From Sipunculus nudus (taxonomy: Eukaryota > Annelida > Sipuncula > Golfingiida > Sipunculidae): a DNA stretch of 64,000 bases. Under the pieces are notes generated by a model, which searched no databases, was not told where the DNA came from, and saw only the letters and a program-made list of their open reading frames with translations. Of the stretch, positions 2,031 to 51,435 are shown piece after piece. Position numbers and translations under genes: made by a program. The number at the start of each line of letters is the position of its first letter. Position 1 is the stretch's first letter. The DNA lies in contig CM049316.1 of the NCBI GenBank assembly GCA_026874595.1, positions 25,691,839-25,755,838 on the forward strand. The letters run 5' to 3'.

Positions 2031-2343
2031 ATAGAAAATATAAATGTGATAATCCACGTGGTAAGGACAGTTGGAGTGTAGCATCACAAAGATAAGGGTC
2101 GATAGGACGAATTTGTCTGTGTGAATGCTGACTGGTTGATACAGTTGCGTGTACCAGGATAGATAAACCATATGATACACATTCATGTTAAGCGAGAAAT
2201 TGGGGATTACGATGTGATAAACCCGCACAAATATGAAATTTTGTAAGGCCGCTAAATAGATCCTGTGAATATTAAGGAATCCACACTTCGTCTGTTTCAA
2301 TGAGTATCGCGCCAGACAAGGAAGGTCGACTTGTGTTGCCAAG

Positions 2344-3360
2344 ATGAATTTGAGTGGAGACACGTTGTATCGCCCATTCACTATGAGCGTAGAAGTACTA
2401 TCTCCATGGAAAAGGTATCAGACATTTTTTTACATATATCACACCTTTCAGCGCGCTAATTACATTGGCTGGATTGTAATAGCTGTGCTTGGTTCTATCG
2501 GAAACTGTGCTGCATTAACCATTCTGTTCTCGTCTAAGAAAACCAGAACCAGTGTGACAGGGTTCCTTTTGATATATTTGACAATATCAGATACGTTGTT
2601 TTTAGTCTGTGGAGTCACAATAAAACACGAAACATCTCGACTATTATGCAAAATACTCTTGGTGATAATTATCTGGGCTGCAATAATGTCTAACATTTTA
2701 ACTATATTCATCGCTTTAGCTCGCTACCTTTCAGTATCCCGGCCGCTCAAAAGGTTCTGGGTTTTGAAATACCGAAATTTAGCCTTAACGGTCGGTGTGA
2801 CGTCATTGGTTATGCTGGCAGTTGTAGCTCCAATCGGCTTTTCTGGATACCCATGTCGGAATACGGAGGAAAGCATAGAAATGGCTATTTTTTTTGTGTT
2901 TAAAACATTGGTGATTAACAGCATCATACTTCGTCTGTCCTTCTTGCTTATTCGACATCTGCGGCGATCCACGGTGATTCCGGGCAACAGCAGTTTAACT
3001 GCTGCGGAAGCTGGAAGAAGTAATAACAACAGAAAAGCAATCAGATTTGTTTTGTTAATTGCACTGACTGCGGTAATTTTAAGTTCTCCACAGACTTTGG
3101 CCTTTTTTCTAGCAATATTCACAGAGTCAGAAAATGCTTTTGCGCTATATAAAATAACCGAAAAGGTGATGATAACTAATTTTGCAATAAACATACTCTT
3201 ATACTGTGTCGGGAGCACATCTTTCCGCGAGGACGCTCGTGCGTTCATAGGCCACGTGTCAAAAATTGCATATTGGATATGTATAAAGAATGCAGAGCAG
3301 AATAACTGCGGCGTGGAAGATGCAACACCAGGCAGCCCTGATCAGGAAACAAGTATATAG
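2344..3360 (+). CDS. Class A (rhodopsin-like) G-protein-coupled receptor, intronless
   Basis: A 338-residue seven-helix receptor in one exon, expected in the plasma membrane coupling an extracellular ligand to G proteins. Helix 1 (about 40-62) has the conserved Gly-Asn at 53-54. Helix 2 contains LTISD with Asp83 (position 2.50). Helix 3 has Cys102, which should pair with Cys171 in extracellular loop 2. The DRY box reads ARY (126-128). Helix 6 carries Pro249. Helix 7 ends NILLY (283-287) in place of NPxxY. The third intracellular loop is short and basic, and residues 291-338 form a cytoplasmic tail. The layout resembles invertebrate neuropeptide or orphan receptors, but the ligand cannot be told. 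Losses in both DRY and NPxxY suggest a divergent or lineage-expanded receptor. The ATG at 2344 gives a plausible N terminus with one N-glycosylation sequon; a second Met at residue 14 is possible. A truncated duplicate lies at 10780-11252. Confidence 0.9.
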   Translation: MNLSGDTLYRPFTMSVEVLSPWKRYQTFFYIYHTFQRANYIGWIVIAVLGSIGNCAALTILFSSKKTRTSVTGFLLIYLTISDTLFLVCGVTIKHETSRLLCKILLVIIIWAAIMSNILTIFIALARYLSVSRPLKRFWVLKYRNLALTVGVTSLVMLAVVAPIGFSGYPCRNTEESIEMAIFFVFKTLVINSIILRLSFLLIRHLRRSTVIPGNSSLTAAEAGRSNNNRKAIRFVLLIALTAVILSSPQTLAFFLAIFTESENAFALYKITEKVMITNFAINILLYCVGSTSFREDARAFIGHVSKIAYWICIKNAEQNNCGVEDATPGSPDQETSI

Positions 3361-3389: not shown

Positions 3390-3885
3390 ACCCAGCCGTG
3401 ATAAAATGACATTTGTGATACAATAATTATTGATGATCACCATAATCACAAGATACCTGTGTGTGATAAAATATAAATGATGACCGCCATCATCACATGA
3501 TACATGTGTGACAATAATTAAGTGATGACCATCGTCATCACATGATACCTGTGTGTGACAATAATTAAATGATGACCGTTAACATCACACGATACCTGTG
3601 TGTAACAATAAATTTAGTGCTGACCAACATCATCAAATGATACCTGTTTGTGACAATAATTAAGTGATGGAAGTCATCATCACACGATACCTGTGTGACA
3701 ATGATTAAGTGATTGCAGCCATCATCACATGATACCTGTATGACAATAATTAAGTTATGAAAGCCATCATCACATGATACCTGTGTGTGACAATAATTAA
3801 GTTATAACAACTATCATCACATTATATCTGTGTGTGACAATGATTAAGTGATGACAGCTATCATTACATGATACAGGTTTATCAG
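3390..3885 (+). repeat. Minisatellite, ~45-47-bp unit
   Basis: About ten imperfect tandem units, each with a GATACCTGTGTG block, a ACAATAATTAA block and a CATCATCAC block. Measured unit starts such as 3496, 3541 and 3588 give a 45-47 bp period. The array starts about 30 bp after the receptor stop codon. Degenerate units (GATACCTG, ACAATGATTAA) continue to about 4220. Confidence 0.85.
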
Positions 3886-14249: not shown

Positions 14250-15545
14250 TTTACAGATGTCCCCAAACTCACTGATGTCATCGAGTATTATATTCGACTC
14301 ACTTCCGATACACCAGTGAAGTCGGAACCGTATCGTGTTCCGTTTGATTTGAGAGGGACTATGCGATCAGAAACCAACGAGATGCTAGGGTTAGGCATGG
14401 TCGAGAAACCAGAGTCGAGTTTTGCGTCACCATGCATTATGCTGCGTAAACTGGATGAAATGATCTGATTCGCGATCAATTTCTGTAAAATGAGTCAGTC
14501 GTTAGTATTTACTGTGCAGCCGATACCAGAGCCAAAAACAACGTTCACAGAGGTAGCCAAAAGCAGATCCTTTACCAAGATAGCTCTGATGAAAGGCTAC
14601 TGGCAGATTCCGATGTCAAAGGAATCTGTGGACAAAACGGCATTTGTAACGCCTGACGGACATTCCCAGTTCAGGGTAATCCCGTTTGGTTTAGTGACGG
14701 CAGGCGCATTGTTTACCCGCATGATACGATATGATAAACGTGGCATGCTATATAAACGACGTGCTAGTACACGCGGAAACATGGGACGAACACGTAAGAA
14801 CTCTCAGGGAAGTGCTGGCTAGACTCGAGCGAGCAAACTTTGCGGTTTAACCAGCTAAGACATCCGTAGGATATCGCAGCACAGAATTTTTGCAATGGGC
14901 CATCTTGTAGGTACCGAATATTTGAAACCAACCCTTCTCTGGAAAGAAAATCAAGAGCGTAGAAAGACCGAAAACCAAGAAAGGCTGGAAAGCCTTTCTA
15001 GGCCTAACCGTTTATTACCGGAAGTTCGTGCCTAACTATACCGAGATAGCAGTTTCGTTGACTGACCTTACAACGAAAGGGAGGCCTTAAAATTTGGATT
15101 GGAAAGAGCTCCATGAGAATGCGCACGGCACACTAAAAGCTAAACTGTCCTGATCCCCCATACTTAGACTACTCGATTCCAGTAAGCGGTTCTACTTGAA
15201 ATGCGCCAGGTCGGATGTCGGAGTCGGGGGTATCCTTATGCAGGTCCACGATGGGATGATGCATCCGATAGCTTATCTTAGCAGAAATTTGCAGGCTAGA
15301 GGGAGATACTACTCTACCATCGAGTGAAAGTAATTGGCAATTGTTTAGACTGTTAGAAAATTTGAGATGTACTTGTCATGTAGACCATTCACGATACAGA
15401 CAGAGCACAAGCCACTCAACTGTATTAGCAAGGCCAAGTGTGCTTACAAGAGGGTAATGAGATGGATTTTAGTGTTAAAAGAGTTCAGGTTTGATATACA
15501 GGCTGTTTCTGGCAAGCCACATCACGGGCCAGACTTCTAAATTAG
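14250..15545 (+). pseudogene. pol-like region (reverse transcriptase and RNase H) of the Gypsy remnant
   Basis: Recognisable blocks are the RT fingers/palm segment with KGYWQIPMSKES (about 14593-14630) and KTAFVTPDG then FRVIPFGL (14632-14695). The catalytic YxDD box reads YIND at about 14750, so one of the paired aspartates is replaced. The first palm aspartate (expected in FTKIDL) is also replaced, reading FTKIAL. RNase H follows, with FYLKCARSDVGVGGIL (about 15190-15240) and IAYLSRNLQARGRYYSTIE (15270-15325). Numerous stops and shifts are present. The region ends in GKPHHGPDF and a stop at about 15540. The element cannot be active. Confidence 0.75.
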
Positions 15546-45500: not shown

Positions 45501-45502
45501 TA

Positions 45503-45965
45503 CACTCTAAAAACTGAGGACATGTTTTATGTTTCAACATGAAACATCATTTTGTCCCGTTTTTTGAAACATGTGTTGGTGTTGTAAGATGTTTCAAGGA
45601 AGGGTCAAGTTTCAAATATTCATAAAACATGTTTCAAACCAAACCATGTCTCAAGAGCTTGATTTCAATTTATGAGACATGTTTTGGATACACATGTTTA
45701 GACTTGAAACATGCTTAATTTAAAACATGTCATAAGATATGTTTCAAATTAGGTGGAACATGTTATGATATTTAAACATGTTTGAGGCAACATGTTTTGA
45801 ATGACGTTTCAACTTGAAATATCAAAATTTTGAAACATCTTCTGAGACATCATTTGTCCCGTTTTTTGAAACACGTCAACCGCACATGATGTTTCAACGT
45901 ATGTACGTTTTATAACGCAAAAGACATGTCCTCATATGAAACATGCATCCAGAAGATTTGTAGAC
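45503..45965. repeat. Left subterminal repeat block (CATGTTTC/GAAACATG)
   Basis: More than a dozen variants of AAACATGTTTCAA, ATGTTTCAA and GAAACAT in both orientations within 460 bp. TTTTGTCCCGTTTTTTGAAA occurs almost identically twice (about 45551 and 45852), and GAGGACATG near the left edge is mirrored by CATGTCCTC at about 45927, so this block alone could fold as a palindromic unit. Confidence 0.75.
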
Positions 45966-47292
45966 ACCTTTTTTAAGTAACAGAACTTAAATTGGGTTCA
46001 GTGATGGGAATATTCCACATTTCAATCTTACTGAAAATAGAAAAAAAAATATGCACACTTTTTCCATGAAAAATATACTTTTTAATACATGTATTCAAAA
46101 TTAAAACTATAATAATTACAAATCATATTCATTTTTATAGTGCACAAACTTGTGCTTAGATTAGGTATGGAATAGTTCAATTATATGAATACCAGAAATA
46201 ATCAGAAGGCATCAATCAGATGCCGAGACAGTTATGAACAGTTTGAAATAAGCAAAGAACACTCTGAATGGTCCATACTGAACAATTACTGGTACATCCA
46301 ATTTAAATGAAACAAACTGTTATGTTTTCTTTTATTTCAGTTTTATTTGGGAATTATAAACATCCGGTAATTACGTAACTAAGGTTATAAATAAACACCT
46401 CTTGAAACCTAACATGGCTGTTATTTTTGTTTTACTGAAAAGGACAAAAATATGAATAAAATTTAAAAATGAATGACAGCATACCATTGTCATCTTAATT
46501 TTAAACGTATAATCTTTTCAAAATAAAAGTGTATTTTTTTTTTAATGAAAAAGCATTCTACTCCTCATTCTGAGAGCTATACAAATGATCAACATGAAAT
46601 ACTGGTAATTTGACCTAAACCTGAATCTATGAATTCTAAATGCCCCTTCTTGTGATAATGTAATGCTAAATCTTAGGCTATGTTTACCCAGTCCTGCTGA
46701 AACATAGTAAGACATCCGCTTCTAGCTTAAATGTAAAAATAATATTAGCTGGTTAACAATCATCTCAAACGAACAGAAGCAACCAACCAATATAAGTTCC
46801 CTAATGTAACAACATCACAACTGTTTCATACACTCCACTCTGATACAGCAAAGTATTCATTGTTACATTCAACTAGCGGCCCATGGGCCATGACACTCAG
46901 CTTAATTCATATATATATAAACAACAAAAGACAAAATTTAGTATCAGGGATACTCACATAGAATGACTGGCAAAAAAAAACTGGCTTGTATTATCAAATC
47001 ATTCCGTCTTTCTACAAATGAATAAGGTTAAAATTTACTAGTTTAGTTCTAAAGAGGTTTGGTTTATGATAGGGGTAGTGGCTTACTGAATTAACAAACA
47101 CTTATTAAGTATTACCAGATTACATGCCCGCTTGTAGCCACCATTGAAAGAAACAGAGCAAAAGTAAACACCAACGTTTGTAGCTTTTCAATGTGCCAGC
47201 AGGTCTGATCCTGTTAACAAACCCATAAAATCCAATGTCTAGTGTGAGCAGCAAAAGTCTTGAACAGTAATAAAGTCTTTCTGAGTAATTTT
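45966..47292. other. Interior of the element downstream of the last SAM-gene exon found
   Basis: AT-rich sequence with no minus- or plus-strand frame resembling a transposase. It may be 3' UTR or remaining introns of the SAM gene. Confidence 0.4.
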
Positions 47293-47436
47293 CTACAGAA
47301 TAAACCTTATTTGTAAAGAGCCCCTATAAACTGCTTGAATGATGGATGTGCTCTTGTCTTTCTCTGGAACCTTCACAAAAACAGCGAATGGTTCAGCCTC
47401 CTCTGATGTCTTGAAGGAAGAATCTGTGATATCTTC
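47293..47436 (-). CDS. Possible last exon of the SAM-domain gene
   Basis: The acceptor is CACTTCTTTTCAG. The 47-codon frame has PFAVFVKVPEKDKSTSIIQA and ends FIL-stop; an alternative donor AAG/GTTTAT lies 12 bases before the stop. No family recognised. Its phase does not fit exon 2, so the link is by position and strand only. Confidence 0.4.
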   Translation of the reverse strand, partial: EDITDSSFKTSEEAEPFAVFVKVPEKDKSTSIIQAVYRGSLQIRFIL

Positions 47437-50215
47437 CTGAAAAGAAGTGATCATGTTATAAATTATGCATGAGTCAAAATTATTATACCTCACAATTAAA
47501 TATGCAGTATAATCATATATTAAAAACTAGTGCACCGGAAATATTGAACAAATCAAAGAAAAACTAGAAAATTTGGATTTGCAACCCAATTCATTAAGCT
47601 CCCCGTGAAGCACAAAAATAATTTCTGCAAATATAGGTCAAGGTAAACCAAAAAGTACTCACTTCGGGTGAGTCATAAGTCAATGCCTTTCACAAAATTA
47701 GAATAAACTCATATTAAACCCTTGGTGCTATTGTGCTGACAAACAAATAATGCCCACTGCCTACTGTGACTTAAATCAACTGATTAATAATGCATGGTTT
47801 GATATAATTCTGATGAATAATAAATGATTTCAGAAAAATGAAATTAGTATGATGCAATATTGATATACAAGAATATTTGACAGTATGCCTAAAATCATTT
47901 TTCCATGATATTGAGTAATTGGGAGAGTAGTTAGTGCCTTCCACTAAGAAATCAGATCAAAACCCTTGGTGCTATCTTGCTAACATCCAACTGATGCCCA
48001 AAGTCTATGCTGACTAAAGTATAGATGGGACTTATGTTTATTTATTTTATGCTTTGACAGTGTCTGGTCTGACATAAACTTGTGTGGGCATAATGGACAT
48101 GTAAACAGGGGCTCAATCTCAAAGCTTGCTGAATACCTGCCAACCTTCTTCCTTGAGAACTCGTTACCAATTTCTGAAGCCCAATCTCTGGAAATATCTT
48201 GTGAACTTCCTCCGCAGTCAAACTTGCAAGGGCTTCTCCATCAATGTAGTTTTCTGAAATGCAGAGCACACATTCACATTTGTATCACTGTCTAACACTG
48301 TCCGAATTGTTGTACATACACAGGCGTGGGGGGGGGGGGGAATCGAGACCCCCCTGCTCTCAACCACCAAACTTTTTTAGACAAATTTTATGCATGACAT
48401 GTAAATAAGCACCCAATGACACCAGTTGACCCCCCCCCCCCTCCCCAAAAAAAAAATCCTGAATATGTGCCTGATACATGTCCTTGGACCATAAACCTCA
48501 AGCTGGAATGAACTATAAGAGTAACTGTGGATTTTAATAAGCATGCCTTTACTACCATGAAACCTATTCCTTAAAACTTTTTCAGTAATTGTTAAAGCTT
48601 ACAGGAATTCCTTGTAAATATATAAATTTCCTACACAAGTATTTATTCACTCACAAACTGGGAATGTGCAGCAGCACCAATCTCACTGTTTACCTTTATA
48701 CCAGTAATGATGTCAGTGTAGACCAAAATATCCCTTAATAGATCCACATAATGAAAACTGTCACTTCCAAAAAAGAACATTTATATGCGAGGAGTGAACA
48801 ATTTGACATCTGCTAAAAAATCTGACACTGTGTGAAAATTTGGGTTACCAGTAGATCATATCAATCACTCATATTGGAAAATAATATAAAATTCAATAAA
48901 TGATTATTTGTTCGCTTCAATGGTGATAAGGGTTTGCAGATTTTACTCGTCATCTGGGTACAACCTGGGTTTAACCCAGGTTGGGTAAAATAGGTTTTAC
49001 CCAGGTTTTTTCCGGGTTTTACACAGGCTTTCTTTTCAGTCCCACATTTTCTCTAGTTTTAAACATAAAGTTTATGTAAAAATTTCACAATTTTAACATT
49101 TTTATTCTATACAATTGAATATAGTAATAATTCAGTGCATCATGCTTGCAGTACCTTAAGAGTGATCAGATATCAGCTGTCGCTTTGAAAGAGTCATACA
49201 AACCATATGAAGGCAAAATGACTTGTTTATATATTAGTGCTGTGCCCTGCATTGCCCAACATAAGATCATGTGTGAGTAGTTAATGGCATCTTAATTCCT
49301 TGTTATGTCAATTAGTGATGTGCTCAGCACATTGTGTGTGTATATCCTAATATGAGTTCAATTCTGAGAGGTACATGACTCTGAGCGAGCCTGTTGATTA
49401 GCCAGGTGCACTGTATAGCCAAATATGACTTTCAGTGTGACTGAAAAAAGGCTGCTTCTTGCTGGGGTGGTTTCTATGGATCATGACTGCTTACCAACCA
49501 GATAGTAACTAAGGTGTGATCCTCATGTATGATTAAAGCGAATAAATGTGAAAAACCTGGATAATTCACTGGGTAAAACCTGGGTAAAATACCTTTTACT
49601 TGGGGTTTACCTGCTTGGTTAGTTAAAATAGGTTCAAACCCTGATGGTGACGCTAACCTGGTAAAGATCCTGGGCTTACGTTTTCATTTGTAATATTTGC
49701 AAAGCTCTGGTTTATTGGACTTGCTGTCATATGCCCATATTGAATTTGTTTTATTTTTGCAGGACACCACATATTATAAACATGTTAATATAAACAAAAC
49801 AAGCAGCCCGTGTGTGGTGATATCCGGCATATCTTCTGGCATTTTCTTATATAAGCTTCATAGGATGACCTTTAGCTTATACAGGACAGATGGGACTGAG
49901 CAAACTGTAAAGGGGTTTCCAGACCACAAAGTGATACAAATGGGAATACAGTTAGGGGGAGGGCACTCATTGATAATCATGCAGACTTCTCAAAGCATTA
50001 AGACTTTTAGTTTTCATTTTGGGTTAGTAAGTCACACAAATCTCTTTCTGCAGAAGAGATTCAGAAATAATACAAAGTTTCAAACTTAAAATAAGTAAGA
50101 TCATTTCATAACCTTCAATAATGGTTTATGATAATGAATGTTTATATAACAACTTTCACCTGAGGATCAGGTCTCATCCGGTCTGTAGCGAATGTAATGT
50201 TATTTTTCTTCATTG

Positions 50216-50263
<48 letters not shown>

Positions 50264-50932
50264 ATACATATATATAAAACAATAAAGAAAACAACACCTT
50301 AAATTCACTACAGACTGTTTCATTGGATGAGACCTGATCCTCAGGTGAATATATATATATATATATATACTGTTAACTATAGATACAATCAGTTTCTTAT
50401 TACTTTTAATTTTAATATATGAAAGCTAAATTTATTATTTATTACAATTTCTACATCATAGACGGTAAATGACCAAACTTCGGATAAAACGGGATGACTT
50501 AAAATCTGTTTTATCCGATCTGGATTAAACCTCTGGATTAAACTGGCTGTGGATTAAACTACTAACCCTGGACATCACTTTAGCTCAGATGACTTATAGT
50601 CAGCTGAGCTAAAAGTAAAAGGCGGGGGGGGGGGGGTTCACATTTAAATAATAAATTAAAAAATATAAATTATATTTAATTTATATGAAAACTGTTTTAT
50701 TTACTAGGACAGTGACGCCAAATAAAACTAAATTTATTTGTTTATTGAGGTTGAGCTCTTTAATTATGCTGAAATCTAGTCAGCTCGTTTAACAATTTAA
50801 TTGAAACTTACCAGCAAAGCGCTTGGCCACAACTTCATGAGGAAATTTCTCTCTCGCATGTGCCTGAACATCTTCCAGGGAGGAGTTTTTGTTTACTGCC
50901 CGAGGATGTCCTGTTTCTGGTGGCTCGGACAT
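47293..50932 (-). CDS. SAM-domain protein gene (partial model, at least three exons)
   Basis: Exon 1 starts at ATG 50932 and ends at 50812 before GTAAGT. Exon 2 (48253-48137) follows ATTTCAG and precedes GTATTC. Joined in phase they encode about 79 residues: MSEPPETGHPRAV, then SSLEDVQAHAREKFPHEVV and ENYIDGEALASLTAEEVHKI with FPEIGL. This is a sterile alpha motif signature (VxxWL-like start, FxxxxIDGxALxxLTxEExxxxFPxIG), most like the short SAM proteins of the SAMD3-like type abundant in aquatic animals. SAM domains mediate protein or RNA contacts. A further exon (47436-47293: EDITDSSFKTSEEAEPF...) is preceded by TTCTTTTCAG and ends in a stop, but its frame does not follow exon 2 directly, so at least one exon between is missing from the model. 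The gene lies between transposon-like termini. Confidence 0.6.
48137..48253 (-). CDS. SAM-domain gene exon 2
   Basis: Acceptor CTGCATTTCAG, donor GTATTCAGC. Encodes ENYIDGEALASLTAEEVHKI, FPEIGLQKLV and SSQGRRLA, the second half of the SAM fold. The phase matches exon 1 exactly. Confidence 0.7.
48928..49643. mobile_element. hAT-type MITE (716 bp) in intron 1 of the SAM gene
   Basis: The ends AAGGGTTTG (48928) and CAAACCCTG (ending 49643) are inverted repeats, flanked by the 8-bp duplication ATGGTGAT (48920-48927) / ATGGTGAC (49644-49651), one mismatch. Subterminal blocks contain repeated CTGGGT/ACCCAGG/TTTTACC words at both ends. No protein-coding frame. It is nested inside the 45503-51287 element. 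Confidence 0.8.
50155..50200 (+). ncRNA. Hammerhead-ribozyme-like motif, broken copy
   Basis: Plus-strand CACCTGAGGATCAGGTCTC matches the 5' half of the motif at 50303-50350 read on the other strand, but about 9 nt including the GAAAC core are deleted, leaving GGTCTGTAGCGAAT. It forms an inverted pair with that motif around a (TA)n tract and cannot be active. Confidence 0.5.
50215..50278. repeat. (TA)n-rich microsatellite between inverted hammerhead motifs
   Basis: TA and TATACA repeats forming the loop of an inverted repeat about 200 bp long. Confidence 0.9.
50303..50350 (-). ncRNA. Hammerhead-ribozyme-like motif
   Basis: Minus strand, 48 nt: stem I ATTCAC, core CTGAGGA (CUGANGA), a degraded stem II, core GAA, stem III ACA/TGT, then the GUA cleavage triplet followed by GTGAAT, which pairs perfectly with the 5' ATTCAC. 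All invariant core bases are present in the right order. Stem II has only two good pairs, so activity is doubtful. Such motifs occur in Penelope-like elements and retrozymes of animals. Confidence 0.6.
50481..50517. repeat. Hairpin with 12-bp arms
   Basis: CGGATAAAACGG and CTGTTTTATCCG are inverted with one mismatch around a 13-nt loop. GGATTAAAC words follow three times to about 50560. Confidence 0.6.
50812..50932 (-). CDS. SAM-domain gene exon 1
   Basis: ATG at 50932 with 40 codons plus one base, ending TTTGCTG before GTAAGT. Encodes the start of the SAM domain. The upstream 150 bp run straight into the right subterminal repeats. Confidence 0.65.
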
Positions 50933-51094
50933 ACTTGTACCGTCGTATGTCTTCTTTAATTTCACGTTTTCAGGTCCCTAAACTTATTGACCGGGGACGC
51001 TCCCGCGCGTTCCGTTAGCTATTTCCGGTGTATAAAACAACGGAATATTTCGCCTGCTTTATCATAATTGTTTACCAGTTATTCCATACCAGCT

Positions 51095-51287
51095 GCTTCG
51101 TGAAACATGAGACATGACTCAAACATGCATATTAAACATGTATCGAAAAGAAGGATGTTTCAAACTAGAAAGTCTGTCAGATATTTAATATTACATGTTT
51201 CAAAACATGTTTAATTTGAATACATGTTTTCTAATGAAACATGTACCATCATTTTGAAACATCATGTGAAACGTCATTTTTACAGTG
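51095..51287. repeat. Right subterminal repeat block (CATGTTTC/GAAACATG)
   Basis: Repeated GAAACATG, AAACATG and ATGTTTC words in both orientations, ending TTTTTACAGTG at 51287. It mirrors the block at 45503-45965. Confidence 0.7.
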
Positions 51288-51289
51288 TA

Positions 51290-51435
51290 CTCGACTTCTG
51301 AGCTACCGATCATCCCTAAACTTCTACTCGTATTTAATTTGTAACATTTTATATGAAACCAGCAAATAAAGTCACCTAATATGTTATTACCATGTGTATT
51401 CATTAGTAGTCATTTCTCATATATAGATATAGACA

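Follow-up and report, generated by a model that had tools for sequence, protein, structure and literature searches.

We describe here a transposon from the annelid Sipunculus nudus, located at positions 45503 to 51287 of a 64,000-nucleotide stretch of genomic DNA (the window: NCBI GenBank assembly GCA_026874595.1, contig CM049316.1, positions 25,691,839 to 25,755,838, forward strand). The unit is a real transposon. Very probably, it belongs to an animal CACTA-like family (CMC, En/Spm-type) that moves by cut and paste, as a non-autonomous copy with internal deletions. The SAM-like gene inside it would be the transposon's own and not a captured one, because full-length relatives carry the whole gene together with a nested transposase. 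The element and its ends are laid out as follows.

45503..51287, genes on the minus strand: whole element, in all likelihood non-autonomous, 5785 bp, with the same ends elsewhere and junctions common to 7 loci
45501..45502, no strand: target duplication TA, left copy
45503..45513, plus strand: left terminal inverted repeat, CACTCTAAAAA
45503..45960, no strand: left subterminal block, with 12 copies of AAACATG counted on both strands
51100..51287, no strand: right subterminal block, upstream of exon 1
51277..51287, minus strand: right terminal inverted repeat, CACTGTAAAAA
51288..51289, no strand: target duplication TA, right copy

The left border reads TA followed by CACTCTAAAAACTG at 45501, and the right border, on the other strand, reads TA followed by CACTGTAAAAATG at 51289. 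The match between the ends is weak evidence by itself, because the window contains 90 comparable TA-flanked pairs of inverted 13-mers (at most 1 mismatch, 0.3 to 10 kb apart, complexity filtered).

The source genome (1.43 Gb, 153 contigs) was searched for further copies. The left block (best 40 of 154 candidates scored) gave 43 listed matches, among them 11 full or near-full copies (403 to 498 of 498 bases, 90 to 100% identity), and the right block (best 40 of 107 candidates scored) gave 14 near-full copies among the 40 matches listed. Exon 1 of the SAM-like gene, searched as DNA, was found in 14 copies, one of them partial (14 of 14 candidates scored). At G000:C3:57.339 and 57.356 Mb, exon 1 and the right block occur twice in opposite orientation, 17 kb apart. 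Four loci (L010, L011, L012, and L013) align to the window element in a single piece, from TA to TA. Full-length identity is 98.6 to 99.9% among the window copy, L010, L011, and L012, which speaks for recent movement, and is 97% for L013 and 95% for L014. The initial annotation had proposed a 5.8-kb transposon with TA duplications and had suggested looking for other copies with both blocks, fixed borders, TA, and the same exons; L010 to L014 are such copies, with the same borders at other loci and unrelated flanks.

Nine copies were read at both ends. Six of these (window, L010 to L014) have clean TA-CACTC...CAGTG-TA borders. L018, a more diverged copy, has TG on both sides, so the dinucleotide lies outside the end and is a 2-bp target duplication; its length lies within the 2 to 3 bp of CMC/CACTA elements. 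At L017, TA likewise flanks both ends, but within an AT run, and the first base of its end is changed. The 150-bp flanks of eight copies (window, L010 to L014, L017, and L018) are mutually unrelated once simple repeats are masked, except that the two flanks of L010, which lie within a local repeat, are like each other. Some copies are closely paired (C3:57.34 and 57.36 Mb), as tandem or segmental duplication of one locus without any transposition would produce; given identical exact borders on different contigs and the unrelated flanks of the eight copies compared, this explanation retains next to no probability.

An empty site reading through TA had also been named as possible support. Only L010 yielded anything usable: its two flanks, once joined, match a neighboring repeat unit on both sides of the junction (75% over 143 columns). 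The alignment contains several gaps, including a 6-bp gap exactly at the junction, and we regard this match as a weak empty site. Candidates for L014 and L017 were dropped, as their rows consisted of the element's own end and AT runs.

The subterminal blocks are defined by a short motif. AAACATG occurs 47 times in the 64 kb on both strands, with 12 copies in 45501 to 45960, 8 in 51090 to 51290, and 1 in the intervening 5.1 kb, so that 20 of the 47 fall inside the two blocks. The 13 windows of 200 bp with the highest AAACAT density all lie in or overlap the blocks. The repeat GAAACATG is present 11 times in the window, 7 of them inside the blocks, against a chance mean of 3.75, and at least 11 copies were reached in 0 of 100 shuffles. 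The motif is clustered in the subterminal blocks beyond chance. Its orientation is balanced (GAAACAT, 5 plus and 5 minus in the left block, 3 plus and 2 minus in the right block); the initial annotation had called the repeats dense and bidirectional. Clustered subterminal repeats in both orientations are a character of CMC/CACTA elements, as are ends beginning with CACT; the inverted ends here begin with CACTC and CACTG, though without a strict CACTA.

The two blocks might instead be independent short miniature inverted-repeat transposable elements (MITEs) that flank a resident host gene by chance, which was the refuting case foreseen by the initial annotation. It was looked for and not found: all 14 near-full right blocks listed end at the exact base where the exon 1 match begins, and the blocks are therefore not independent MITEs. 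One left block, L019, is an orphan without a downstream right block, and CACTATAAAAATGA at 46142-46129 (minus strand) could be taken for an end that closes the left block on its inner side. An equal or better match (at least 11 of 13) occurs in 18 of 315 background 400-bp windows. For each of the other 10 among the 11 left blocks, a right block follows downstream on the same contig, 5.8 kb away in five cases, 6.3 to 15 kb in four, and 60 kb in one (hence nine within about 15 kb), and L010 to L013 align end to end. The twin-MITE explanation is thus highly improbable. At L016 (C17:29.38-29.44 Mb), the ends are 60 kb apart, and a long tandem array is present in the 10 kb at the left end, which is the sequence covered at this locus.

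The window element has lost much of its interior. A copy on another contig (C2:35.70 Mb, here C2) has 15.1 kb between the same ends and contains exons 1 and 2, an 814-aa open frame, and three further coding segments. Relative to it, at least two internal stretches are gone from the window element, which retains the following gene remnants.

50812..50932, minus strand: protein A exon 1, with ATG at 50932
48137..48253, minus strand: protein A exon 2 (SAM-like region, second half), its frame broken by a 2-bp deletion
48015..48117, minus strand: transposase frame remnant of 34 codons that include the first C2H2 finger, with ATT as start codon
48015..48016, no strand: junction J2, about 8.65 kb lost relative to the 15-kb copy, among it two middle exons and the greater part of the transposase
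47375/47376: junction J1, about 186 bp of the last exon lost relative to the 15-kb copy
47307..47436, minus strand: protein A last-exon remnant, 130 bp kept and about 186 bp lost at J1

Both junctions are continuous in seven loci (window, L010, L011, L012, L013, L014, and L016) and in none of C2, L017, and L018, so one deletion derivative has itself multiplied. Judged by these alignments, the window copy is an internal-deletion derivative that presumably moved in trans. An AT-cored inverted repeat is present in intron 1 of the element (50155-50349) and also in L010 to L014, L017, and L018.

The initial annotation had read the interior as what seemed a spliced SAM-domain gene. Its exons on the minus strand do have splice signals; the frame is broken here under the splicing of the relatives, and the SAM matches fall below threshold. 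Exon 2 has a 2-bp deletion relative to older copies, and the frame spliced in the manner of the relatives reaches an early stop; an alternative, earlier donor in the same exon gives a 116-aa open frame. If spliced as in its relatives, the window gene is apparently debris, and movement would then have to rely on protein from elsewhere. Other young copies are also damaged, with a stop in exon 2 of L010 and a 4-bp insertion in exon 1 of L013.

In C2, both genes are intact. Protein A, the product of the SAM-like gene, has five predicted exons of 121, 119, 283, 635, and 312 bp that join in frame to encode 489 aa. The transposase is a single frame of 798 aa with N-terminal C2H2 fingers, located wholly within intron 2 of protein A; the initial annotation had suggested a search for a transposase in longer copies. 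The two genes are on the same strand in the full-length relatives. A sibling family, whose protein A and transposase are 48% and 58.5% identical to those of C2, has the same apparent organization, with gene order and splice phases in agreement and the transposase frame again nested in an intron of the second gene. Exons 2 to 5 of the sibling are 119, 283, 626, and 309 bp long, with the phases of C2. Both C11 and C12 provided exon 2 and the transposase, C12 also provided exons 3 to 5, and C11 exon 1; this exon 1, which has a phase-1 donor and aligns, was chosen by eye among 18 mechanical candidates. The transposase frame starts with ATGGAGCC, downstream of the exon 2 donor by 19 nt in C2 and by 29 nt in the sibling, and ends with ISAPYVEP in both. 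It is open at C11 and frame-shifted with a stop at C12. Between C2 and the sibling, synonymous sites are saturated (proportion of synonymous differences, pS, 0.78 to 0.84), and the nonsynonymous proportion, pN, is 0.25 for the transposase and 0.28 to 0.40 for protein A exons 2 to 5 (five segments compared). Such low pN against saturated pS reads as purifying selection, by which both genes would have been maintained. Two further sibling loci were noted: L023 is a 9-kb element with TA on both sides and a long tandem array (unit about 50 bp, by match spacing), and G000:C3:38.126-38.162 Mb has four sibling left tips 11 to 12 kb apart, perhaps from tandem duplication.

These relatives bear on the origin of the SAM-like gene, for which the initial annotation had left two options: an element that mobilizes a SAM gene, or a family whose own gene encodes SAM. 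Under the first, Pack-type capture, a CACTA-like element acquired a SAM gene from its host and carried it to new sites, and the window alone would fit this, having the ends, no transposase, and a spliced gene fragment. The middle exon, searched as protein (32 of 32 candidates scored), gave 18 listed matches, seven of them full length and stop free, and all seven have a transposase match 3 to 5 kb away on the same strand (best 56 of 205 candidates scored in the transposase search). No full-length, stop-free middle exon was found away from a transposase, such as the parental host locus of a Pack-type fragment would supply. Long matches with stops have a transposase about 3 kb away at C8:51.69 Mb and about 20 kb away at C10:46.24 Mb; for those at C12:17.57 Mb and C7:44.41 Mb, none was nearby among the matches listed. 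Together with the collinearity of gene A and transposase in two families and their matching splice phases, these matches make capture very unlikely; had the capture come before the two families diverged, the gene would by now belong to the element itself. The second option, with a whole SAM-like gene and a nested transposase in the 15-kb copy and in the sibling family, is the one that the data support.

In a more distant transposase family, of 823 aa, a second gene lies downstream, a stretch of which resembles the middle of protein A. In hhalign, the two-family profile matched this gene with 77% probability (E 2e-5, 53 columns; reversed control, 0.1%), and in blastp it was matched by the sibling protein at E 8e-6 and by C2 protein A only at E 3.7. 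A SAM exon was looked for at the 823-aa family and not found. This likeness hints that the second gene may be older still. The 823-aa frames occur at L029 and L034 (C8:30.05-30.06 Mb), and 7 of the 11 listed are stop free in the matched part; the second gene near L029/L034 matches DUF5537 below cut-off.

The class of the family was assigned from its transposases. An alignment of six transposases from the source genome covers most of their length; it shows invariant acidic residues, and the N-terminal finger Cys and His residues are mostly kept. Seven loci of the genome exceed the PF02992 (Transposase_21) cut-off, and the six-member alignment matched the proteins of three of these seven in hhalign with 99.4% probability (E 4.6e-21, 406 columns; reversed control, 0.4%). 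By this bridge alignment, the family is placed in the CMC supergroup, in line with the CACTA-like affinity first suggested by the CACTC/CACTG ends; the Transposase_21-type protein is a feature of the full-length relative and is not carried by the window copy. Elements of the Mirage group have a TA duplication and a CACTG-like end, and the TA target of most copies and the CACTG right end would suit such an element in place of CACTA/EnSpm proper. Since the transposase is linked to Transposase_21, the CACTA model, we consider a Mirage assignment unlikely, though less so than the other alternatives. Tc1/mariner was rejected on the TG duplication of L018 and a transposase of another type. No relatives turned up in IMG/VR, whether the query was the SAM exons, the transposase, or the alignment of transposases, and in a PDB search with the transposase profile, C2H2 fingers were the sole notable match.

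Several observations weigh against the reading of the element as CACTA-like with a SAM-like gene of its own. The 15-kb copy has CG at its left border and AC at its right, without a matching duplication. Two members of the six-transposase alignment, L029 and L030, match PF02992 directly (E 5.3e-5 and 1.4e-5), both below the curated cut-off (22.9 and 24.9 versus 28.6), and the C2 transposase does not match PF02992 in a direct hmmscan; its matches are to C2H2 models and DUF4218 (E 0.026 to 0.029), all below curated cut-offs. The SAM assignment is weak, being below threshold in every Pfam model matched: SAM_1 at 15.1 bits versus 23 (116-aa form from the window), SAM_3 at 13.8 versus 22.6, and SAM_Ste50p at 17.7 versus 21 (sibling). 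The term SAM-like is used for this reason. The whole 489-aa C2 protein A had no match in a profile scan, and no SAM chain was matched in PDB searches. The splicing of protein A is a prediction from sequence, and the case against a host locus with nothing but the SAM exons comes only from the exon 1 DNA and middle-exon protein searches. The sibling protein has a subthreshold match to the NFRKB winged helix (E 0.076), which is only a lead towards possible DNA binding.

We propose the following mechanism for the family. Transcription would start near the right block. Removal of intron 2 would give protein A, and retention of the intron, or use of another acceptor, would give the transposase; maize En/Spm (tnpA/tnpD) and Schistosoma SmTRC1 work in this manner. 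Transposase supplied from elsewhere would mobilize the window element through its CACT ends and subterminal GAAACATG repeats. Protein A, which might self-assemble by way of its SAM-like domain, would be a TnpA-like partner that gathers the ends; by analogy, a TnpA-like function with binding to the GAAACATG repeats is the most likely reading. More tentatively, and with the balance of probability against it, animal CACTA-like elements in general may have their own En/Spm-like control, in which a conserved SAM-like protein self-assembles on GAAACATG and regulates or assembles transposition, while an intron-held transposase is released by alternative splicing. If so, many of the multicopy "SAM / SAMD3-like" genes annotated in animals, which we take to resemble protein A, would be transposon genes.

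Elsewhere in the window, an open frame of 363 codons (2269-3357, plus strand) matches a rhodopsin-family 7tm receptor (E 3.2e-11), a 47-bp tandem repeat of about 10 copies occupies 3420-3874, and a reverse transcriptase fragment (RVT_1, E 1.6e-9) is present at 14469-14819 (plus strand). An Rfam scan of the whole window gave no match.

With the present work, an animal CACTA-like family becomes known from intact as well as deleted members, together with a defined motif in its subterminal blocks and a second protein that is conserved. It also cautions that a SAM-like gene between inverted ends does not prove gene capture. The division of labor between TnpA and TnpD, an old plant question, becomes testable in an animal element. 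In maize, dSpm elements are deletion derivatives moved in trans, and TnpA binds the subterminal repeats; plant CACTA elements have CACTA ends and a 3-bp duplication. The present family is like En/Spm in its two-protein layout, deletion derivatives, and subterminal repeats, with protein A likened to TnpA by layout alone, and differs from it in having CACTC/CACTG ends and a 2-bp duplication. En/Spm is described as one transcription unit with several spliced transcripts, of whose products TNPA and TNPD are essential (PMC1636069).

Among animal elements, Spongebob_HMa (EnSpm-4N1_HM) of Hydra is a CACTA element of 5,836 bp with a 2-bp duplication, whose exact transposase was not determinable owing to stops and frameshifts; the available part of its description mentions no SAM-like gene (PMC4298943). 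The 2-bp duplication is shared with the present family, whereas its ends are CCC rather than CACTC/CACTG. SmTRC1 of Schistosoma mansoni is an animal CACTA/TRC element with a Transposase_21-type transposase and, in 7 of 14 copies, a 2-bp duplication; it is alternatively spliced, with transcripts for a second protein (PrA) that lie outside the transposase frame, and truncated copies are transcribed (PMC1636069). It is thus like the present family in its type of transposase, its 2-bp duplication, and a second protein apart from the transposase frame, and differs in ends that begin with CCC. Because its second-protein transcripts lack the transposase frame, the nested logic is not new. A literature search on the SAM domain together with CACTA gave nothing relevant by title. 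As far as the literature searched goes (Repbase, where a relative may already be described, lies outside it), what is new in comparison is a second protein, here set beside PrA by description only, that is conserved between two families, is SAM-like, and belongs to elements with CACTC/CACTG ends.

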